Shown here in pieces: positions 30,245 to 64,000 of a DNA stretch of 64,000 nt. Where the stretch lies: assembly GCA_027858965.1 (NCBI GenBank), contig JAQIBS010000168.1, positions 1 to 64,000 of the forward strand. The letters are read 5' to 3'. The translations under genes were made by a program, and so were the position numbers. The notes beneath the pieces are model-generated. The model was given only the letters and a program-made list of their open reading frames with translations. It was not told where the DNA came from and did not search any database. The stretch's first letter is position 1; each line of letters opens with the position of its first letter. The DNA comes from Kiritimatiellia bacterium. GTDB taxonomy: Bacteria; Verrucomicrobiota; Kiritimatiellia; RFP12; UBA1067.

Positions 30245-32460
30245 GGGGATGACACCTCAATCTCTTCCATGTCAAGAAGCTTGTACACCTGGGCAAAAAG
30301 GGTATCCATCTCAATCGGCTTTCTTAGTACAGGAATGCTGATTTGACCCTCATCGATTTTCATCCTGGTCACGTCCGTGCCTGTAACAATGATCTTTGGA
30401 ATATGGCTCGTACCGATCTTCTCCTTGAGACATTCGATCACCTCGTATCCGCTGATACCCGGCAAAACCATGTCGAGCAGAATCAGATCCGGCATATCTC
30501 TGGCTGCCAGCTCCAGGGCTTGTTCGCCATTGTACGCCTTGATCACCCGGATTGACTTATGCTGAAAATATCGCTCGAACAGTTGCACGATGTGCTTTTC
30601 ATCATCCACTATCAAGACCGTCTTAGGGGTATTCACAAGGAGAATTGCGTTGGATACGCGCTCCCGAAGAAGGCCTCTCAACTGCGGAGCACCCGCCGCA
30701 TCGCAGGGATGACAGACCGTGGCCAGCCGCAACCCGAACTCCATCGGTTTTTGGTTCATCAAGAATCGGTATTTTTCATACCGGTACAAGATCTCCTGCT
30801 GAATTAAAGGGAATCTGTTTACACAAGCATCCGATACAATCACAAGCTCTCCGGAATCTTCAAGGCACCAAACATTGACTTCCGCATGAATTCCTTCGGT
30901 CAACACTTCCCCCAGCTTGCGAAAGAACAACGATGCGGCGGCACCGTACCGGGCCTGAAGCTCGGGCCACTCGTTCAGACTGATTCCCATAAGAGAGGTG
31001 CGAGTGTGGCCGGCATCAGCTTTGGCGATCCGTTCAGCAAGGCATTCCAGAAGCCCCACTTCGCTTTGATAGTCAGGAAGCCTGAATATAAGCTGGCTGC
31101 CCTGACCTAATTCGCTCTCGGCCCACAAGTCGCCGCCGTGCAACCGAACCAGTTGCTGCGCAATCGCCAGACCCAGCCCCGTTCCCGAATCGCCCCCATG
31201 CGCAGCTGAGTTGCCGCTCTCAAACTTCTCGAAGATTTTCTCCGTCTGTTCGGGCGACATTCCGATACCTGTATCCGACACCACGCACCGGATGCATCCT
31301 CCTTCTATTCCCGCTTTCACTGCGATTCGCCCGCCGGAAGGGGTGAACTTAAAGGCGTTGCCGATCAGGTTGACCAGCACTTGCTCCAGCCTGTCAGCGT
31401 CGGCAAAAGCCAGAGGAACATCACCGCCCACCTCATGAATAAGCTCAATCTTCCGCTCGCTGGCGGTCTCCTTGAACGAGTCGCATACCTTCAGGAACAG
31501 CGTACCGACATCGACAAAAATCCGGTTGAAAACGACTTTGCCAGACTCAATGCGCGAGATATCCAGCAGGTCGCGGATGAGCCGCCCCAGCCTTTTACAA
31601 TTCCGATGGGCGATCCCAAGGATCGCTTGCTGCTCCTGGCTAACCTCGCCGTAGAGCCCGTCGATCACCTGGCTCACGGCTTCCGTGATGTTGCTGAGGG
31701 GCGTGCGCAACTCATGCGAGGCGACAGACACAAACTCCGTCTTCATACTGTTTATTTTCTTCTCCTGCGTGATATCGCGCAGCGTGATCAGCAAAGCGGG
31801 ATCGCCTTTCCACTCAATCTCCATCGATCGCATTTCCACGATCTTCAGCTCTTCCGAGGCATTCACAAGTTCTAATTCGCAGATCGTGTCGCGCTGATGA
31901 GCGCGACCAAAGAGAGCTTTTTTCAGCTGATCCTCTGACTGTTTCAACAGGCTTCCAGCCTGGTCATTGAAATAAACGATCGTGTCCTGATCGTTCACGA
32001 TAAGTACCCCGTCGGTGTGCTGCTCAAGGATGCGGAGTAAACTCCGCTCGCTCTGGATCAGGGAAAGAGCGACGTACTGTTTCGCCATAAACGTATGAAC
32101 TTTGTCCCGCAGAATCTCGGGAACCAGCGGCTTGATCAGATAATCCACTCCCCCGAGCGCGTACGCCCGCCGGATAATCTCCTCGCTACCGGACTCTCCG
32201 GTGATGAAGATAATCGGAGTATGGAGGGTTGCCTCCCGGCTACGGATCAGCTGAGCCGTTTCAATACCGTCTATACCGGACATATGCACATCCATCAAAA
32301 TCAATGCAATGTCCTGCTCCTGTAGAATCCGCAATGCCTCTTCCCCTGAATTCACCCGAACCATAGGATGGTCCAGATCTTCCAACATCGCTTCCAGCGA
32401 CAACAGGTTGGAGGGGTCATGATCCACCAGCAGAATCTGCATAGGCTTTGGTTTATTCAT
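30241..32460 (-). CDS. Hybrid sensor histidine kinase (REC-PAS-HisKA-HATPase-REC)
   Basis: The start is ATG 32460 (MNKPKPMQILLVDHDPSN), with AGGAG upstream. It is 739 residues. The domains are N-terminal receiver (ILMDVHMSGIDG), PAS (HTDGVLIVNDQDTIVYFND), HisKA with phospho-His (VASHELRTPLSNITEAV), HATPase (NLIGNAFKFTPSGG; DTGIGMSPEQTEKIFEKF; GTGLGLAIAQQLV), a spacer of about 130 residues with no clear family, and a C-terminal receiver (LILLDMVLPGISGYEV). There is no transmembrane segment, so it is cytosolic and driven by phosphorelay. It lies 1 nt after the frameshifted upstream gene and is part of a five-gene signalling operon. Confidence 0.92.
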   Translation of the reverse strand: MNKPKPMQILLVDHDPSNLLSLEAMLEDLDHPMVRVNSGEEALRILQEQDIALILMDVHMSGIDGIETAQLIRSREATLHTPIIFITGESGSEEIIRRAYALGGVDYLIKPLVPEILRDKVHTFMAKQYVALSLIQSERSLLRILEQHTDGVLIVNDQDTIVYFNDQAGSLLKQSEDQLKKALFGRAHQRDTICELELVNASEELKIVEMRSMEIEWKGDPALLITLRDITQEKKINSMKTEFVSVASHELRTPLSNITEAVSQVIDGLYGEVSQEQQAILGIAHRNCKRLGRLIRDLLDISRIESGKVVFNRIFVDVGTLFLKVCDSFKETASERKIELIHEVGGDVPLAFADADRLEQVLVNLIGNAFKFTPSGGRIAVKAGIEGGCIRCVVSDTGIGMSPEQTEKIFEKFESGNSAAHGGDSGTGLGLAIAQQLVRLHGGDLWAESELGQGSQLIFRLPDYQSEVGLLECLAERIAKADAGHTRTSLMGISLNEWPELQARYGAAASLFFRKLGEVLTEGIHAEVNVWCLEDSGELVIVSDACVNRFPLIQQEILYRYEKYRFLMNQKPMEFGLRLATVCHPCDAAGAPQLRGLLRERVSNAILLVNTPKTVLIVDDEKHIVQLFERYFQHKSIRVIKAYNGEQALELAARDMPDLILLDMVLPGISGYEVIECLKEKIGTSHIPKIIVTGTDVTRMKIDEGQISIPVLRKPIEMDTLFAQVYKLLDMEEIEVSSP

Positions 32461-53127: not shown

Positions 53128-53634
53128 TCATTCAATCAGCTTACCCCATTCGACGATTCTGCTATCACAAATAGATTTAGGAAGAAATGAGCCACGACTC
53201 AGCATTGCTTTAAGCTTGCAAATCGCATCAGCAGGCATAAGTAGCTGATCGTTGACCAGACGATCAAAAACCCAAATCACACCGCAGACTCTAACTCCCT
53301 CTCCAATGGCAGTCCTGCGTAATGCCGCATCACCCGAGAGCAATACCGCATTTTTATTTTGGGCAAGAATCAACGCTGACGCATCCTCAATGCTGATCTT
53401 ATGTTTCTCGCGTTTTTCAACTGCCAAGCTCAATTCATCTGATGTTAAGGACTCAACTATGATTAAACCTGCATCGACAAAAGAATAAAAGACTCTTTTC
53501 TGCTCAAACTCAACGATTTCTAGCTGAACCAAGTCCGAAACATAAGTTTCTATGCCCAGCTTAAACCATAATCCAAGAAGGTCGCTCTCGATGAGATCAA
53601 TCAGGATATTTGCATCTTTGACCGCGACCTTCAT
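53128..53634 (-). CDS. PIN-like domain protein, probable toxin-type partner
   Basis: A 168-residue product starting MKVAVKDANILIDLIESDLLG. The PIN-like acidic residues are in VKDANILIDL, ISIEDASALILAQ and VLLSGDAALRRTA. Such proteins are metal-dependent RNases in toxin-antitoxin pairs. The gene lies 5 nt after the XRE/M78 gene, an arrangement known for COG2856-type pairs. Confidence 0.75.
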   Translation of the reverse strand: MKVAVKDANILIDLIESDLLGLWFKLGIETYVSDLVQLEIVEFEQKRVFYSFVDAGLIIVESLTSDELSLAVEKREKHKISIEDASALILAQNKNAVLLSGDAALRRTAIGEGVRVCGVIWVFDRLVNDQLLMPADAICKLKAMLSRGSFLPKSICDSRIVEWGKLIE

Positions 53635-53639
53635 TTAGG

Positions 53640-54707
53640 CTATACCACCATTCCTTGAAGTTCCTTACGGAATGAATTCAGATCCTGCTTTAACAAGGCA
53701 GCACCTTTGGATAGTGTAATACGTTCTTCTGCGACAGCCCGCCTGACTAACTGTTTAAAACGAGCAGGCGTTTCATCGCACATGCAACGCCCATCATCCG
53801 GTTCGCCCTTTTTGCGCCACCCGTGTTTGTTTGCATACTTGCAGAACTTCACATAGGTTTCATTGGAGATCATCTGCAATTGTTTTGCACGAACCATAAT
53901 ACCCATCATCGAAACCCCGAAAACATCTTTGAGCTCCATCAATTCGCTCAATCCGATGCGGTTGCGGAATTTTCCAAACTCGTAGACAAACACCTCTTGT
54001 GGCAGCAAAAAGGCCCCGGCGAAACGATATGCTATTTTCTCCTCCAGTTTATCATCATCAGGCATAGGCAGAATAATATGCGCGGCTTCATGAACACAGG
54101 TCATGCGTTTTCGCGGCTTATTATCAATCTGCCCCAGAACAACCAAGGGTCGCCCATCCGCTTCTGCGGAAAACCCGTCCATTTTCAGATCCAGTTCCAA
54201 CTCACATACCTTAAAGCCTTTTCGTTCCAACAAACCAACGACGCTTGGTATGGGATCATTTCCCAACTCCCACTTCATACGAAGCTTATCGGCAAACATA
54301 TCCGCATCCTCGGGTTTAGAGATTGTATCCGCCGCTAAAAAAGGCGGTTTAAACGCTATGATATCCCCTGTCAACTCCTCTGCCTCACAGTATCGCTCAA
54401 AAAAATCTGTAGCCTGCTCAACCGCAGCCTTCACCTTTTTACCAGCTAAGGCAACTCTCTTACGATAGCTTATTTCGCCAAGGTTCACGGTAAAAGATCT
54501 AAAGAAAAAATCGGCCGGTTGCTGGACTGCCATGGCAACTGCTACCAGAATTCCACTACCAGGAGACATCTCCCCCCGCTCATAACGCGCCAGGGCATTA
54601 TGAGAGACCTTGCCATCAGTTGCCACAGCCAGTTCTCGCAGTGACCAACCCTTCATCGTCCGCGCCTGTTTGAGACGCTCTCCGAACACATTATCCCCGC
54701 CGTTCAT
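53640..54707 (-). CDS. XRE helix-turn-helix plus ImmA/IrrE (M78) metallopeptidase
   Basis: The start is ATG 54707 (MNGGDNVFGERLKQARTMKGWSLRELA), seven bases after AAGGAG; the ORF's 36 earlier residues are not likely coding. About 355 residues. The HTH (LRELAVATDGKVSHNALARYERGEM) precedes the peptidase with HEXXH in CVHEAAHIILP and AYRFAGAFLLPQEVF. It probably represses its own operon and may degrade or be degraded on stress. It pairs with the downstream PIN protein as a toxin-antitoxin or stress-response module. Confidence 0.85.
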   Translation of the reverse strand: MNGGDNVFGERLKQARTMKGWSLRELAVATDGKVSHNALARYERGEMSPGSGILVAVAMAVQQPADFFFRSFTVNLGEISYRKRVALAGKKVKAAVEQATDFFERYCEAEELTGDIIAFKPPFLAADTISKPEDADMFADKLRMKWELGNDPIPSVVGLLERKGFKVCELELDLKMDGFSAEADGRPLVVLGQIDNKPRKRMTCVHEAAHIILPMPDDDKLEEKIAYRFAGAFLLPQEVFVYEFGKFRNRIGLSELMELKDVFGVSMMGIMVRAKQLQMISNETYVKFCKYANKHGWRKKGEPDDGRCMCDETPARFKQLVRRAVAEERITLSKGAALLKQDLNSFRKELQGMVV

Positions 54708-54844
54708 AATCATACTCCTTTTTATGTTTACATTTTTAACATTTACGGTTGATTTTGTAAACAACAAAGTGTATATTAATAGATACAAAAAAGAGCCAAC
54801 CCAGTGCTGACACACTAAGTTGGCTCAAAGCCTCCCGAATAAAC

Positions 54845-55853: not shown

Positions 55854-56447
55854 TTATTGAACTGAAGAAGGTTCATCGCCAGATTCATCTTTTTGAGCGC
55901 GCTGCCCTGTGATGAATGCATACACTAAGCTTATTACTGTTGCACCAGCAATACCACCTCCAACCACATCATGCCCCATGAGAGTAGCAATCGTACCAGC
56001 CACTATTCCTGTTATACCAATAACAAGCGCAAACTTTTGACCTATTCCGCTCTGATTAATGGCCCCCTCAACCATCTTGCGTTCCATGCCTTGCCGGTGC
56101 TTGGCTTGTTCTTCAGCCATAATCATTATTCTATTAGCACCATCAGGAATATGTTTGTTGTAAAGTGCTATATCTTCAGGCCGCGGAAGCGGTCCGCTAT
56201 GACTCTGCATTTCATAACGCGCAGCAACAATACCTATCAGTTTTTTGCGCTTATCCACCGACAACTCGGATAAAATTTCAGGTGCTTCTATTTCAAGCTT
56301 TTCAAGAATATCACAACAGGGATTTCCCGCAGCAACTTCCAGTTCAGATTCTGAAACTTGAACGTCTTCTTCGGACGAGACTAAATCTGTTTGTTTCTTA
56401 TCAGCCATTAAATCAACCTGAGTTTCAGTAAGCTGCCGCTCTTCCAT
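55854..56447 (-). CDS. DUF2335 family membrane protein
   Basis: A 197-residue product. The DUF2335 core is HSGPLPRPEDIALYNKHIPDGANRIMIMAEEQAKHRQGME. Two transmembrane helices follow (FALVIGITGIVAGTIATLMG and GGIAGATVISLVYAFI). The N-terminal 60 residues are acidic. The family is frequent on mobile and defence-rich segments; its function is unknown. It follows a small ORF by 8 nt on the same strand. Confidence 0.85.
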   Translation of the reverse strand: MEERQLTETQVDLMADKKQTDLVSSEEDVQVSESELEVAAGNPCCDILEKLEIEAPEILSELSVDKRKKLIGIVAARYEMQSHSGPLPRPEDIALYNKHIPDGANRIMIMAEEQAKHRQGMERKMVEGAINQSGIGQKFALVIGITGIVAGTIATLMGHDVVGGGIAGATVISLVYAFITGQRAQKDESGDEPSSVQ

Positions 56448-56656: not shown

Positions 56657-57029
56657 TTTTTATACACTTTCAGATTATCTATCAACCAAAGGATAAATGA
56701 CAACTACCCAAATCTGTTCAATATGATACCTTAACTGCTAAAGAGTGCAAGCGCAAAAAACGTCAACTAATTGAGCTTTTTACCCAAAATTATCAAATCA
56801 AAAAATTATACAGAAACAAGGACATTTGTGAAACAAGTTGTTTCACTAATTGCTTCGCAGATTTTTGACAAGATAACCAGAGGCTTCGCCACGGCATGGC
56901 AGGATTAACAGGATTAATTTAAACTTTATTTTATGCAACGCGCAGCGTTGTTGACTAATGCAGTGATGGCTTTCACACAAAGCTTAGGCAAATCATTGTG
57001 GTTAGGCTTATGGTTCAAAGCTTATTAGG
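56657..57029. other. Intergenic region with palindrome and repeat D
   Basis: GTGAAACAA-g-TTGTTTCAC (56828-56846) is a perfect operator-like palindrome. gcaggattaacaggattaat (56899-56918) and repeat D (tatgcaacgcgcagcgttgttg, 56933-56980; see 27252) follow. taggcaaatcattgtggttaggc resembles other array fragments. No gene is seen. Confidence 0.55.
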
Positions 57030-58154
57030 TTACGGCTGCGCTGCATTAGCTTGCTTTATCTTGCGCGATATTGTCGACTCAGACGTTTGAAACAGTTCGG
57101 CCAATGTGCTACCTTTAAAGATGGATGGACTTAAGTTTTTGACATCAATAATGTCTTCCGGTTTACCGTCCTCCGGTGAAATGCTCCGCTTAAGCCTTGT
57201 TTCAACGATTCGCCACACTAAGCGGTTAATATCAATGGATTTCCGGCCTCGGACAACTGCATCCCGAATAGCATTTTCAGAGATCATACGTATATCGGCC
57301 CCGGTCATCTCCTCTGCAAGATCCGCAAACAATTCTATATTTTCACCAGATGCATACTGATTCAGGAACAGATTAAATATTTGCTTCCTGTCACCGCAAC
57401 TTGGGAGGGTAATGTTAATTTTAAATGTAAAACGCCGCCAGATTGCCGGGTCAAGCATATGTTCATGATTGGTTGCCGCGAGAAAAATTGTATGCGAATC
57501 CATTGCATCTATGTTCTGCAAAAGACTTACAACAACGCGTTTGAGTTCACCAAGTTCCTGTTGGTCATCCCTGAGTTTTGCAAATGCATCTATCTCATCA
57601 AGAAAAAGAATACAGTGCCTATGCGCGACATGGTCAAAAAGGGTTCTTATATTTTTCGATGTACTCCCGAGAAAAGAGGAGATCAGGGTATCAGCGCGAG
57701 CGGTTACTAACGGCCGTTTGAGGCGACAGGCAATATGACGAGCCAACTGGGTTTTACCCGTGCCTGGAATTCCGTATGTTATAAGAGATGGAGAGACCCC
57801 GACCCCATGTTTTTCTAAAGCATCTGCATTCTCAACATAACTGACAAACTCATCCACACTTTCCTGGATTCTCTTATCGAGTACAATCTGAACCGAATTT
57901 GCCTCAAAAAATTCTTCATCCGCAAGAGAGAGACGAGACTCCGAGTCAACTGGAATCCTCGGAGTACTTCCAAAAGCACTACTTGCCATTTCTGATTTAG
58001 GGAATTCCGAGATCCGCCGCAACCGATTCGCGGAGCGTTCATCCCCCAAACTTTCAACCTTCTCAATCAGTTGATCAAGATATGCAGCGAGCCTTTGCTT
58101 ATCGCCTTTCAAGCCCCACTCTGCAATTTTACTGATTTCCCGTAGATGTTCCAT
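57030..58154 (-). CDS. AAA+ ATPase (FtsH/proteasomal-ATPase-like) of the accessory island
   Basis: A 374-residue product. A helical N-terminal region (LAAYLDQLIEKVESLGDE) precedes one AAA module: Walker A GIPGTGKTQ (128-136), Walker B CILFLDEIDAFAK (181-193), sensor 1 FLAATNHEHMLDPAIWRRF with arginine finger, and a lid with GADIRMISENAIRDAV. GGAG precedes the ATG. ATPases of this group often partner with a subtilisin-like S8 protease in defence islands; no protease gene is seen here. It follows the nuclease-STAND gene by about 205 nt on the same strand. Confidence 0.85.
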   Translation of the reverse strand: MEHLREISKIAEWGLKGDKQRLAAYLDQLIEKVESLGDERSANRLRRISEFPKSEMASSAFGSTPRIPVDSESRLSLADEEFFEANSVQIVLDKRIQESVDEFVSYVENADALEKHGVGVSPSLITYGIPGTGKTQLARHIACRLKRPLVTARADTLISSFLGSTSKNIRTLFDHVAHRHCILFLDEIDAFAKLRDDQQELGELKRVVVSLLQNIDAMDSHTIFLAATNHEHMLDPAIWRRFTFKINITLPSCGDRKQIFNLFLNQYASGENIELFADLAEEMTGADIRMISENAIRDAVVRGRKSIDINRLVWRIVETRLKRSISPEDGKPEDIIDVKNLSPSIFKGSTLAELFQTSESTISRKIKQANAAQP

Positions 58155-58295
58155 TGTTACTCCAAATTGCTATTTATTGGAATAATTGTACACCTATTTC
58201 TTGAAATAAGTCAACGGCCACATGCAATACGTTTTCATATTTCGCAATTTAATGATATTAAATGCAACTTCTTGGTTAATTACGCAATTAAGTAG

Positions 58296-58350
58296 GCTTT
58301 TCGGAAAGGAAGGAACACGTACCCCCGACCTGATACCACAAATTATTGCG
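58296..58350 (-). other. tRNA-like remnant
   Basis: Read on the minus strand, GGTATCAGGTCGGGGGTACGTGTTCC resembles the variable-to-T-arm part of a tRNA (GGTCGGGGGTTCGAATCC). The plus strand gives the phrase GTRTPDLIP, which is the usual spurious translation of an antisense tRNA 3' half. The acceptor and D arms are not recognisable, so it is not a working tRNA. It may be an old attachment-site fragment. Confidence 0.35.
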
Positions 58351-58360
58351 CTACTTATCC

Positions 58361-61300
58361 TCAAGGATTCCACCATGGAGCCATCTGTTCCTCAACCGAC
58401 CTATCGACCTTATGACCGCGGAGATATTCCTTCATCCGTCTGCCTCGCACCTTGGTATCACGCCGATGATTTGTAACGCAGTCCCAATGACGCCAAAAAT
58501 GACGGATTAGAGCTTCCTTCCGAGGGTTGCTACCCGGCACAGGAAATCCAGCACCCTCTTCTTCTATTTCACGCCATACCATACACGACGGTAGCAGCGC
58601 CGGTTTCATAATATGTAGTTCACGTGAAACAGCGTACTCGTCTGTAAAGCCCAATGCTCTACGATACGCGTTTCTACAAGCAACGTCCTGACGTCGAACA
58701 CCAAGAGCCCAGAAAACATGATCACGCACCCAACAACTAGGATCTTTATCAAACAGATCATTTAATACCTGATCAATCGAATCCCCCCAGAGCCACGCTA
58801 TGACACTCACAGCCAGTGCCCGATCCTTAGACAGTTTGCTTTCCAGTAGCAACTCACATACAGCAAAGAGTTCCATTTCCGAACCCATGCGTATCGCATA
58901 TAGAGCCAGCCCCATGATGACTTCGTCATTGTCCGCTTGGACAAGCGTTGCCCTCCGAATATGTGAAATACCCTTAGCTCTATTAAGGATAGGGAGCCAT
59001 GTCGTAGATGGAACCAGTTCAGCTTCACAGATTGTATATACACAACTACTGGAGACAGACCGCAATCGTTCCCAATACGCATAAGCATCAATTGGATGTA
59101 GCCTAAGCATTACCGACAACAAGCAATGAGGAAACACACCCATTTTTGCCAAAATGCCTTGTGATGCCAGCACACTTTTGAAAAACTGATCGCAGTAAGT
59201 TTTGAACTCACAAGGATAGCGTTCTGCCCACGATAAAAGAGCATGCTCATCATTGAAATCACGGAGCGCAAATCCCTTCCATTTCTGGAGGGCATCCTCA
59301 CTTGCCTGCCACTCCGCTAAATGGACATTTGCATCTTCCACACAGCCCGCCTCTACATCTGCGTTGCGGCCCCACGAATTCAACCCGAGAAATATAGTTT
59401 TCGACTTGTCTTTGATATCAACAGGGCCATGAAAGATCACACAACCATCGGGACTCAGCTCAAAGCGCGTCACCTTTGGGGTGATGTCCCCGTCAACGGC
59501 CGCAGCGCATTGGCATGCCAGCCAAAGTATTTCTTGTCCCCAATTCCGAAAACCCTCATCATCTTGACACAGGAGAAATATGCGACCAGAGTGAGCCAGC
59601 ATTTCGGTACCACGGCTCGCCCACAGCATCATCAACTCTTTCACTGTGCCTTCAGGCAGGTATCCATACCGAAGCATATACACAAAGTCCTCATCCTGCA
59701 AACACACAGCAAGTTCTGGATTATCGCGAATCAGGGAAGGCAGCCGGGATGTAGCAGAGCGAGCCAAAAGGCGTATGCAGTCATCACGACATTGGGCTGG
59801 GCACCCTTGAGTAAGCAGACCTATAGCCCACTTAGCAGCCGTATCATCGTCCCCTACTGCATTAGACCATAGAGTCAACCAGTACTCCATCCTCTCAACT
59901 GCCCCAGGTTCTCTCCTCCAGTCTGGAATCTCACAGATTGTGATTGCGCGATGCTGTGCAAGACTTACCACACATGCAGGTTTTAACATACGAAGCAATT
60001 CTGTAATACTCATCAGATCAACGAGCAGATAGCCTCTCTTAGCACGAAAATTTTCTGTATCAACCAAGTACGCTATAATCTGATCGTCACCACCGTGTAG
60101 AAGAATCCACTCCAGCAGCATCTCCGATGTAAAAGGACTGATGTTGTTGCGGTGTTTTTGCACACACAGATCAATAGCTTGTTGAACACGATTATTTTCA
60201 TGATGCCAGATAAAGCCTTGGAAATGATGGAATATTTCATAATTGGGTAAAGCATCCCCGGCGAGAGTCCTTTCAAGCGGGCCGACACAAATACTTTCAA
60301 ACTCTTCAGGGTCCAGCTTCAAAGCCCAAGACCATAGCCCATCGAAAAACCATCGATCAATGCTTACATTCTCGGGATTGCAGCATCTACGGAAAAGTTC
60401 CATAATCTCGATCTTCGCTTCATCTATTATCTCTGGCAGATCATCACGAACAGCAAGTAATTCCATGTTATGCACCCAACTACGCGGATTATCCAGCATG
60501 AATAATCTAGGATCTCCGTGTTTCCGTATAGACTCTTCTACTGATGCCAGCCCAATCCTTTCCGAGTTTTTCTTTGTATTTTGAATACCCAAGCCCTCTG
60601 TGATCAGCCATTGGTATGCTTCATTGATATCAGATCTGGTTTCGTTATCATAAAGCAATTGCAACGCGGGGACAAACGATTCCGTGTATATCCACCTCAT
60701 CAGCACTTTCAAAGTATTATAAGGCCATTTAGCCGGGAACCGGTTTTCACCATGAACCTCTATCGATAAGTTTGCCGACGCATAGCACTCTGCCAAGATG
60801 GGCAGCATAGATTCATCAGGTTTCTGAGACAGGATTGATATGGCTATCGGAGTAAGACGTAGCTGCACATTATTGGGTACAACAGGCAACTGAATGCCTT
60901 CCCATTTCCTATGTTTTTCACCAACAGGCTGTCCCTCACTCCACGTCACCAACAACCATCGACGCAATATAGACGCCAATTCGGCGTGATCGTTCGAACC
61001 ACTCCTCCATAAGCGAGCGAGCGGTGCCACGGCCACCTTCTCTGGACTTCCAGCACGCGGTGAAATCAACAGATCTTCGATAAATAAACCATAGGCATTC
61101 AAACGATGCTTGCACCAGAAATCCAATTGATCCTCCCGACCAAAGATATTGTGCGAACAAAACCATGCTAAAATTCCACCTGCCACCGACACATCAGACA
61201 ACGTCGCCTCCCCAGCTAAGGAAAGTTGCAATGCAACAAGGATACCAAGAGTACGACGTGAATCAGACAAGCCCGGTTCAAGCAGTTCATGAATGCGATC

Positions 61301-63016
61301 CGCAATAGCCAACACATCCCCTAAGTTTGTTGTCTGCAGATGCCTCAGAATCAAAAGTCCCCACGCAAGTGCTACGTGATCATCAGAAAGCATTGCTGAC
61401 ACCCGCCCCGATTTCTTAAACATCTTTGAGTCAAGTAATTGTGATCGCAGTTCTAGGTATTGGCCGCCGAACAAAGAATTGAGCTGATTGTCTGATAGTG
61501 CCCCATCAGGACTTAATCCTTCTGCTATAGAAGATAGAAGCTCCTTAGCATCAAGGGGATTGATCAGCTTCAAGCCATTAGTAACCACAGGATCAAGCCC
61601 CGTCTCGATCTTTGCCAGCAGATCGTACCACCAAATGACCGCTGGCGTCATGATCTCAACCGACGGCATTCTGGATTTCACGCGCAAAAATACAGAAAAT
61701 AACCGCGGAAAATACAGCAACCCTGCTGCATCTTTTGGAAGATCTTTTTTTGTCAGACTATTGCGAGATAAAACCTTCATGAATTCAGCTTCACTATAGG
61801 GAAGAACGACAAAAGTCGTAGCACGTTCACCTATGACGGACAAAGGGTTACCAGGCATAGAACTCAGCGAACGTGTACTAAACACAACGCGAAGTGATTT
61901 TGGAAGTCGCCAATTGTCTATATTCTCAGACGGCCCATCATATACGCTGGCCACATGATCAATACTTCTGCCCAAAAGAGACCCAATAATCCGCTCAGCA
62001 GCAACAGGGCAACTCTTTTCATTCATGCCATCCAAAACAAGCAGTATTGGTAGTTTCCATCGCAATTCAAGGTTTTGATATAGACGCTGACACAAGTACA
62101 TATCAGAATCAGGCACCCCAAGACACACTTGAAATGCTGTTTCAACGGCTCCCCGAATATTGTTTAAACCCTGCCAGTGGATAGAATCCAGCCAAAGCAC
62201 CAATGCATCACCTGAGATCGCAATTTTCCAAGCCTCTTGAGCCATAATCCAAGATTTACCACACCCCTCTTCTCCTTCTACAAACAGCAATGGCACGTCG
62301 CCCTTCCACCACTCCCTGAATCCAATTGCAGAGTCATTTCGTATTATGGCTTTAGAAAGCTGGATAGAATAAGACATCGGTGATCTTTTGACTACCGAGT
62401 CGATCTCAAATCGGCGACGAAGATATGGCACACATTTTTCACGGCAGGAATTGTACGAATCTTCATCTATTAATGATGCTGGATATATATCAGATGACAT
62501 ATGCAAATACTGTTCTGCAATCCAGAATATATCAGGATCACTCAAATTTTCTGACAGTGCTTGTCCGTCAAATATCTGAAGATCCACACCATGCTTATCG
62601 AGACACCAATTAATAAGTTTATTTCGTTTCGCAATAGGCAGATCCTCAACACAAAAATATACTATGGGGCGCTTCTCTTGCGTATTACTGAAAATGGAAT
62701 TAACGTCTGACTTAATTTTTGAGAAAATCTTTTGTTTAAGAGAGCATGCAAAAAACACATCCCCATTTTTGGTTCCACCCTCAAACAGCTTCGTGTCCTC
62801 TAAAACAAATGCGTCATCTAAAAATGTATTATATGTTTCAAAATCTCGTCCTTGGTCTCCGCCTGCCCCTACAGGTCCTGTTGCAGGAAGTAAGTTTCTA
62901 CAAATCCTTTGTCGGGAAAACTCACGTGTGATATCTTCAAAATAATGATGCTTATTCTGAACCTTAAGTTGCTCCAGCTGAAATCTTATCTGAGCCCTTA
63001 CATTTTGAATCGTCAT
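58361..63016 (-). CDS. Giant nuclease-STAND NTPase (Avs-like architecture), candidate antiphage sensor
   Basis: A 1551-residue product with a clear AAGGA site. The N-terminal domain (about 1-125) is restriction-endonuclease-like: NLLPATGPVGAGGDQGRDFET (D54, D58, E60) followed by VFFACSLKQKI (K94/K96). The STAND/NACHT NTPase follows: Walker A VEGEEGCGKSWI (about 247-257), Walker B ILLVLDGMNEK (about 324-334) and FSTRSL sensor region. From about 560 to the end is a helical, repeat-like region typical of sensor arms. It is encoded 59 nt after hsdS. Avs-type proteins recognise phage proteins and activate an effector; no close match can be tested here. Confidence 0.75.
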   Translation of the reverse strand: MTIQNVRAQIRFQLEQLKVQNKHHYFEDITREFSRQRICRNLLPATGPVGAGGDQGRDFETYNTFLDDAFVLEDTKLFEGGTKNGDVFFACSLKQKIFSKIKSDVNSIFSNTQEKRPIVYFCVEDLPIAKRNKLINWCLDKHGVDLQIFDGQALSENLSDPDIFWIAEQYLHMSSDIYPASLIDEDSYNSCREKCVPYLRRRFEIDSVVKRSPMSYSIQLSKAIIRNDSAIGFREWWKGDVPLLFVEGEEGCGKSWIMAQEAWKIAISGDALVLWLDSIHWQGLNNIRGAVETAFQVCLGVPDSDMYLCQRLYQNLELRWKLPILLVLDGMNEKSCPVAAERIIGSLLGRSIDHVASVYDGPSENIDNWRLPKSLRVVFSTRSLSSMPGNPLSVIGERATTFVVLPYSEAEFMKVLSRNSLTKKDLPKDAAGLLYFPRLFSVFLRVKSRMPSVEIMTPAVIWWYDLLAKIETGLDPVVTNGLKLINPLDAKELLSSIAEGLSPDGALSDNQLNSLFGGQYLELRSQLLDSKMFKKSGRVSAMLSDDHVALAWGLLILRHLQTTNLGDVLAIADRIHELLEPGLSDSRRTLGILVALQLSLAGEATLSDVSVAGGILAWFCSHNIFGREDQLDFWCKHRLNAYGLFIEDLLISPRAGSPEKVAVAPLARLWRSGSNDHAELASILRRWLLVTWSEGQPVGEKHRKWEGIQLPVVPNNVQLRLTPIAISILSQKPDESMLPILAECYASANLSIEVHGENRFPAKWPYNTLKVLMRWIYTESFVPALQLLYDNETRSDINEAYQWLITEGLGIQNTKKNSERIGLASVEESIRKHGDPRLFMLDNPRSWVHNMELLAVRDDLPEIIDEAKIEIMELFRRCCNPENVSIDRWFFDGLWSWALKLDPEEFESICVGPLERTLAGDALPNYEIFHHFQGFIWHHENNRVQQAIDLCVQKHRNNISPFTSEMLLEWILLHGGDDQIIAYLVDTENFRAKRGYLLVDLMSITELLRMLKPACVVSLAQHRAITICEIPDWRREPGAVERMEYWLTLWSNAVGDDDTAAKWAIGLLTQGCPAQCRDDCIRLLARSATSRLPSLIRDNPELAVCLQDEDFVYMLRYGYLPEGTVKELMMLWASRGTEMLAHSGRIFLLCQDDEGFRNWGQEILWLACQCAAAVDGDITPKVTRFELSPDGCVIFHGPVDIKDKSKTIFLGLNSWGRNADVEAGCVEDANVHLAEWQASEDALQKWKGFALRDFNDEHALLSWAERYPCEFKTYCDQFFKSVLASQGILAKMGVFPHCLLSVMLRLHPIDAYAYWERLRSVSSSCVYTICEAELVPSTTWLPILNRAKGISHIRRATLVQADNDEVIMGLALYAIRMGSEMELFAVCELLLESKLSKDRALAVSVIAWLWGDSIDQVLNDLFDKDPSCWVRDHVFWALGVRRQDVACRNAYRRALGFTDEYAVSRELHIMKPALLPSCMVWREIEEEGAGFPVPGSNPRKEALIRHFWRHWDCVTNHRRDTKVRGRRMKEYLRGHKVDRSVEEQMAPWWNP

Positions 63017-63075
63017 TGACTTCCTTCTTTTCGAGATCTCTTACTATTATAATAGCCATTGACTATCACACACGT

Positions 63076-64000
63076 TTAGCCACCCGAAAACGCCTCTTTC
63101 AATACAGCCTGCATGAGTTTTTCGGCATTGCTCTGATTTTGAGCTATTTGATTTTCCAGTTGGTCGCATAAAGAAACTAACTTTTCAACTTTAGTTACAA
63201 TCATTTTTTGTTCAGCAAGAGGAGGCAGCGCAATGACATTAGTTTTAATCTTCATCATATTAAGATTTGGCTGGGCACCCCCTTGCGCCTGTGCTCTTAT
63301 ATCAACATAATTCTTTTTGAAATGTGTTTTGATAAATTGATTTAGTTCTCTTGAAAACAAATACAATGAAATCGTAGCGCAAGCTTGATTGGTTGCTGCA
63401 TCAATCATTAGTTCTGTAATTTGCCCTCGCGTCTTTCCTTGTCCATACATAGCAACAACAAGTGTACTAACCGGATAAACACTACAATTGGTTTCACGTA
63501 ACGCCTTATCAGTGATTTTATTTTTTGTGGTTCTGACAAATCCTAAACCCGTATCTGAACTTGTCATCCAATTAACGATTCCTCCATAATACAGAGGCTC
63601 AGATGTCAATGGTGTCGCACCTGTTCCTATATTTGCTACTTCCGCCAATCGACACCACTCCCAACCATCCGGCAGTTCAAACAATTTTTCTTTTTCGGTA
63701 ATTGGCGGCAGGGATTTCGGCTTCTTGATTTTTCCTTCTTTAACCAGTTTGGCTTTCTCTACCTGTATGCGGGAGAGGAGTCCGCTTGCCGGCTCGACAT
63801 CGGGATTCTGCTTGCGCCAATCGGCGGTAAGTTTGCCTTCTATCGCATCCTGCAAAATTTGCTGACGGAGCTTCTTTAGAAGAGTTTGCTGGTTAGTGAG
63901 TTCAGTGTTAAGTTTACCGTTGCTCTCTTTTACTCGCCTAAAAGCAGTGATAAATGCTTTTTGTTCTTCAAGTCCAGGTAGGTGAATTTGCTGGTTGAAA
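63076..64000 (-). CDS. hsdS: Type I restriction-modification specificity subunit HsdS, 5' end beyond the window
   Basis: The ORF track starts at an internal TTG (63855), but the frame is open to the window edge. The upstream part reads FNQQIHLPGLEEQKAF...NQQTLLKKLRQQILQDAIEGKLTADWRKQNPDVEP, the classic central conserved region of HsdS. The second target recognition domain follows (LPDGWEWCRLAEVANIGTGATPLTSEPLYYGG), then IALPPLAEQKMIVTKVEKLVSLCDQLENQI and the C-terminal ALKEAFSGG-type end. It determines DNA specificity with HsdM and HsdR, expected upstream outside the window. The nuclease-STAND gene begins 59 nt downstream. Confidence 0.93.
   Translation of the reverse strand, partial: FNQQIHLPGLEEQKAFITAFRRVKESNGKLNTELTNQQTLLKKLRQQILQDAIEGKLTADWRKQNPDVEPASGLLSRIQVEKAKLVKEGKIKKPKSLPPITEKEKLFELPDGWEWCRLAEVANIGTGATPLTSEPLYYGGIVNWMTSSDTGLGFVRTTKNKITDKALRETNCSVYPVSTLVVAMYGQGKTRGQITELMIDAATNQACATISLYLFSRELNQFIKTHFKKNYVDIRAQAQGGAQPNLNMMKIKTNVIALPPLAEQKMIVTKVEKLVSLCDQLENQIAQNQSNAEKLMQAVLKEAFSGG

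Follow-up and report, generated by a model that had tools for sequence, protein, structure and literature searches.

It is probable that the 1551-residue protein P0001, encoded in the window (the whole stretch of DNA analysed here, bases 1-64000 of the 88.7-kb contig C228 of a draft genome of 5.9 Mb in 256 contigs), is a self-contained NLR-like antiphage protein that is independent of the type I restriction-modification (R-M) subunit HsdS, and that the neighbouring ietA gene stems from a separate, broken IetAS system. In P0001, a NACHT-type STAND NTPase is preceded by a nuclease-like module at the N-terminus and followed by a long arm that is predicted to be helical. Judged by the alignment, the 1551-aa ORF is a real gene because three full-length proteins can be aligned over 1450+ columns. 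An independent sensor-nuclease of the Avs/bNACHT type is the most likely reading because both relatives of P0001 stand alone near integrase genes.

The reading order on the minus strand is hsdS, the 1551-aa STAND ORF and the 374-aa AAA+ ORF (Table 1). The ORFs, their order and the gap downstream of hsdS are as described in the initial annotation, with exactly 59 nt between the hsdS stop and the STAND start. Purine-rich AAGAAGGAAG is located a few bases 5' of the STAND ATG and is a plausible ribosome-binding site. The gap between the STAND gene and ietA comprises 206 nt, which is wider than the tight spacing of an operon core. Scans for promoters and terminators gave signals at or near chance level; a promoter-like site upstream of ietA (58214-58185) fits separate transcription of this gene but is no proof of it. 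A dispersed intergenic repeat at 56918-56981 (TGCAACGCG..GCGTTGTTGACTAATGCAGTGATGGCTTTCACACAA) is present in about 40 copies in the genome, which share 78-96% identity. Moreover, a gene for an HTH and IrrE-type peptidase (M78) protein, followed by a PIN-domain-like gene, is located at 53128-54815 on the minus strand; the two genes beside the island are a possible toxin-antitoxin-like pair.

Table 1 Features of the locus in reading order (positions on contig C228; positions up to 64000 are also window positions)
Feature	Position	Strand	Evidence and remarks
hsdR, EcoAI-type	70406-72853	-	NCBIfam, 1188.7 bits vs cut-off of 550
SIR2	69198-70406	-	PADLOC SIR2, 1.5e-134
HerA	67261-69201	-	PADLOC HerA, 3.5e-217
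hsdM	65840-67264	-	NCBIfam, score below equivalog cut-off
ORF6N-domain protein	64465-65520 (L002:2465-3520)	-	PADLOC candidate PDC-S05, 1.5e-122; between hsdM and hsdS
hsdS 3' part, type I R-M specificity subunit	63076-64000	-	Pfam and PADLOC; runs past window end
P0001, 1551-aa STAND NTPase with N-terminal nuclease-like module	58361-63016	-	ORF and full-length homologues
Effector module, P0001 residues 1-185, putative PD-(D/E)xK-type nuclease	62462-63016	-	Alignment, BLASTP
STAND/NACHT-type NTPase core, P0001 residues 230-400	61817-62329	-	Motifs, NACHT matches, conservation
C-terminal helical arm, P0001 residues 560-1551, presumed sensor	58364-61339	-	Three-way alignment; helical by low-confidence model
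ietA (iteA), P0002, AAA+ ATPase, 374 aa, orphaned	57030-58154	-	PADLOC, NCBIfam, Pfam
DUF2335 predicted membrane protein	55854-56447	-	Pfam PF10097, 5.5e-14; between ietA and ietS remnant
ietS remnant, ~68 codons	55558-55764	-	tblastn and PADLOC IetS model

P0001 carries the motifs that had been noticed initially, namely GGDQGRDFE (residues 52-60), CSLKQK (91-96), the Walker A motif GEEGCGKS (248-255) and the Walker B motif LLVLDGMNE, which ends at residue 333 and contains DGMNE from D329 onwards. The sensor-1-like motif FSTRS (379-383) corresponds to FTTRP and FTSRP in the relatives and resembles the TSRP motif of the NACHT type. The protein thus has the P-loop Walker A, the Walker B with an acidic/Asn pair and the TSRP-like sensor motif of STAND NTPases. 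All three family members match the NACHT profile, the best with an E-value of 1.9e-4 and P0001 with 0.24, both below the Pfam gathering cut-off. No family in Pfam, PADLOC or NCBIfam was matched by P0001 above cut-off. PADLOC assigned no family, the models of Avs1-Avs5 included, to P0001 at E ≤ 0.1 and none to its relatives at 0.01 and 0.001, and PDB sequence searches with P0001 and with the family profile were empty or returned chance matches. Of the Avs-type architecture that had been proposed, the layout of nuclease, NACHT-like STAND NTPase and helical arm, which is that of Avs and bNACHT proteins, was retained, but the PADLOC Avs models remained unmatched.

The effector module (residues 1-185) occurs in Pseudomonadota, Actinomycetota, Bacillota, Cyanobacteriota and on viral contigs. 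In an alignment of 12 sequences, it shares 38-41% identity with six plasmid-borne proteins and 21-26% with the others; F26, G47, P48, G52, G53, D54, D58, E60, K100, D104 and D150 are invariant and E27 is nearly so. Unlike K100, the beta-3 lysine K94 of the CSLK motif varies across the relatives. The module is a putative nuclease of the PD-(D/E)xK type, a label given because of the order of the motifs and a low-confidence model, and to be read with the variable K94 in mind. It matched no Pfam or PDB family. No P-loop motif was found in the module-bearing proteins of 965-1173 aa, and no Pfam family was matched by the six of these that were scanned. BLASTP aligned residues 10-179 (44% identity, E 1e-45) with the start of an otherwise different protein from an Agrobacterium pusense plasmid (L028:1-7877). 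The gene of the latter protein is located downstream of a Ser/Thr kinase gene and of a pair encoding an ATP-binding protein and an S8 peptidase, whose annotation is IetAS-like.

The N-termini of the two full-length relatives of P0001 show no detectable similarity to this module (E > 0.04). They have in common a different nuclease-like module (31% identity, E 5e-22) with the motifs CIQSKRY and AIQAKRY. At the level of sequence, the effector has been swapped, with two nuclease-like modules on one NTPase-arm core, and the order of effector, NTPase and arm with an exchangeable effector is that of STAND proteins. STAND immune proteins are expected to show this pattern, and their tripartite layout has been described (PMC12931631; PMC12169576).

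The initial annotation did not recognise the C-terminal arm, and indeed the arm matched nothing in Pfam, PADLOC or the PDB; self-BLAST detected no internal repeats in it. In the three-way alignment, the arm ends in a conserved MAPWWN motif. AlphaFold2 was run on residues 1-640 and 540-1551, and confidence was low because the alignment was limited to sequences from the window and the related loci. The model of residues 540-1551 is helical, which at a pLDDT of 39.7 is a hint only. In the model of residues 1-640 (pLDDT 46.8), the region 25-149 has the order alpha, then beta-alpha-beta-alpha-beta. Foldseek returned no match for this model at E ≤ 0.001, a result that is not counted as evidence.

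The family was searched for in 388 genomes of the phylum and then in narrower, partly overlapping draws of 286, 240, 177 and 62 genomes. The search of the 388 genomes yielded one other full-length match, and all draws together yielded two, from the Opitutaceae bacterium EW11 (G143, 1571 aa) and from G469 (1552 aa, profile E 2e-155). Both proteins align end to end with P0001 and share its NTPase and arm at an overall identity of 23-28%; their identity to P0001 averages 27% across the NTPase (230-400), 22% along the arm (560-1551) and 31% over the last 60 residues. A GTDB scan with a two-sequence profile, of which two short patterns were usable, found the EW11 relative alone, and no STAND relative was found in the viral contigs searched. 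The distribution of the family is therefore rare and patchy. A fragment of about 34 codons that resembles the STAND C-terminus (NHRKK...CERMPQWW) is located in a non-coding stretch at G000:C61:31689-31790 (within 31683-31838) and is, by this resemblance, the remnant of a second family member; one copy of the 56918-56981 repeat adjoins it.

The neighbourhoods of the two relatives bear on the proposed link between the STAND protein and HsdS. The EW11 gene is solitary and adjoins a tyrosine-recombinase-like ORF, and the G469 gene is flanked by a DUF4238-like ORF on one side and by a tyrosine-recombinase-like ORF on the other (both named from their sequence). Both genes lack hsd and AAA+ neighbours, and linkage to these genes is thus not a property of the STAND family (n = 2 relatives). 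The initial annotation had suggested a functional linkage to HsdS, had named homologues lacking hsd or AAA neighbours as the finding that would speak against it and had proposed a survey for recurring hsdS-STAND-AAA neighbourhoods; both relatives lack hsd genes, and this arrangement was not seen beside either of them. It is highly improbable that the STAND protein senses a failed or inhibited type I enzyme, for instance when a phage anti-restriction protein is bound to HsdS or HsdM, with the AAA+ protein in charge of remodelling or recycling it. Such a coupled system would fit the location of the STAND gene on the same strand 59 nt behind hsdS, its plausible ribosome-binding site and the uninterrupted minus-strand run of genes from hsdR through ietA. 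However, it disagrees with the absence of hsd and AAA genes beside both relatives, with the identity of the AAA+ gene as ietA with a decayed ietS and with the 206-nt gap. No positive evidence was found for the idea that the R-M system is backed by a sensor triggered when restriction fails.

The AAA+ protein P0002 matches the PADLOC IetA model over residues 1-370 (3.9e-126), the NCBIfam IteA model with 401 bits (5e-120), which is below the equivalog cut-off of 510, and Pfam AAA (1.6e-28). According to these matches, the 374-aa protein is a full-length IetA of the known IetAS (IteA/IteS) system. The system requires IetS, a subtilisin-like protease whose gene directly follows ietA. This pairing was found on Dongshaea and Acidovorax plasmids. 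Moreover, in the nearest IetA relative (G271, 59% identity), a gene for a 761-aa IetS overlaps ietA by 4 nt; in two further relatives, the ietS position is taken by ORFs of 751 and 772 aa. No intact ietS was found directly downstream of ietA in the window. Instead, a remnant corresponding to residues 691-758 of the 761-aa IetS (tblastn, 49% identity, E 1.75e-15) is located about 1.27 kb downstream of ietA, likewise on the minus strand, and it matches positions 682-748 of the PADLOC IetS model (1.5e-10). The catalytic domain is absent from the remnant. In the rest of the genome, matches to the IetS model covered its positions 413-555 only, inside ORFs of 596-2639 aa. Because only about 68 C-terminal IetS codons remain, the AAA+ gene is the surviving half of an IetAS system in decay, although the loss of ietS may also be a misassembly of the draft genome.

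An operon partnership between ietA and the STAND gene was considered and rejected. The earlier view of the AAA+ protein as a partner of the STAND protein is not supported, because the protein is an IetA whose own partner IetS has decayed; the three inspected IetA relatives have an intact IetS directly downstream and no STAND gene as a neighbour. It is very unlikely that IetA was kept after the loss of IetS and now serves as the ATPase partner of the neighbouring STAND protein. That the ietA ORF is intact even though most of ietS has been lost could point to selection for keeping it; however, a recent loss of ietS explains the intact ORF equally well, and neither do the three ietA relatives adjoin a STAND gene nor the STAND relatives an AAA+ gene. 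Extremely improbable is a two-layer system in which the STAND arm guards HsdS or HsdM or senses a bound anti-restriction protein, the nuclease fires if restriction is blocked and IetA has been recruited as a remodelling ATPase. A single machine composed of R-M, STAND and AAA+ proteins is thus very to extremely unlikely.

Beyond the window edge, the operon reads hsdR-SIR2-HerA-hsdM-ORF6N-hsdS on the same strand. The full-length hsdS (C228:63076-64404; L002:1076-2404) encodes 442 aa, and its part in the window matches Specificity_I of PADLOC (2.2e-59) and Methylase_S of Pfam (1.5e-17). With hsdR, hsdM and hsdS in one cluster, the system is of the EcoAI-like type I. The genes from hsdR to hsdM are joined by overlaps of 1-4 nt. 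The G+C content of the two genes of the SIR2-HerA pair (C228:67261-70406; L002:5261-8406) is 33-35% vs 47-49% for hsdR and hsdM, and the pair therefore resembles an inserted cassette within the R-M operon. In G562 (L061), a genome of the same class, a helicase-SIR2-HerA-methylase cluster with overlapping ends was found (gene names read from sequence), and on a Listeria plasmid, the pair occurs alone. At the locus analysed here, defence systems are stacked in an island.

With P0001 as an independent antiphage protein, the C-terminal arm would recognise a protein or structure made by the phage, and the NACHT-type STAND NTPase would then exchange its nucleotide and form oligomers. This would bring the N-terminal nuclease-like modules together to cut DNA, which would stop the infection or kill the cell. 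The architecture and motifs of P0001, the exchange of its effector and the decay of ietS are direct results of the analysis; by analogy with the families named below, P0001 is assumed to sense, to oligomerise, to act as a nuclease and to defend against phage. The STAND gene may be located behind the R-M operon since defence genes gather there, and HsdS would not be needed. It is unlikely that the gene stands alone and has a role outside defence, such as signalling or transcription control, as do many bacterial STAND proteins. This would be in line with DNA cutting by the N-terminus of P0001 being putative. However, the genes on one side of the STAND gene all belong to defence (hsdR, SIR2, HerA, hsdM and ORF6N/PDC-S05), the distribution of the family is patchy, its other members are located beside integrases, and two alternative nuclease-like modules are found at the N-terminus.

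The analysis adds an unclassified STAND subfamily with three full-length members and two different nuclease-like effector modules, as well as a widespread unnamed nuclease-like module. Current defence annotation overlooks both because PADLOC and Pfam do not detect them; the STAND protein is missed by NCBIfam, too. Moreover, unrelated genes can pass for one system when a neighbour has decayed, as here with the loss of ietS beside ietA.

Several known systems resemble parts of this locus. The proteins bNACHT25 and bNACHT32 of clade 6 combine an N-terminal PD-(D/E)XK-type nuclease, which is required for defence, with a central NACHT and a C-terminal helical sensor (PMC12169576), a layout that P0001 shares with a putative nuclease and a presumed sensor. 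However, the arm of P0001 comprises about 1000 residues and matches none of the NACHT-associated C-terminal domains in Pfam, and its nuclease-like module belongs to another, unnamed family. Avs1-Avs4 (AVAST) have a nuclease, putative in P0001, ahead of the STAND part and a long C-terminal sensor, presumed in P0001, in a single large gene with variable effector modules as P0001 does, whereas P0001 matches no PADLOC model at E-values up to 0.1 and the family profile no PDB sequence up to E 1. Compared with IetAS, the 374-aa IetA is the same full-length protein, but IetS is cut down to its C-terminal fragment and the system is broken. Independent defence genes embedded in type I R-M clusters are already known from tgvAB on VPI-2 of V. 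cholerae, where the extra genes inside the hsd operon protect independently of HsdR (PMC11411939). Here, SIR2-HerA is the embedded pair, whereas the STAND gene follows hsdS and lies outside the operon.
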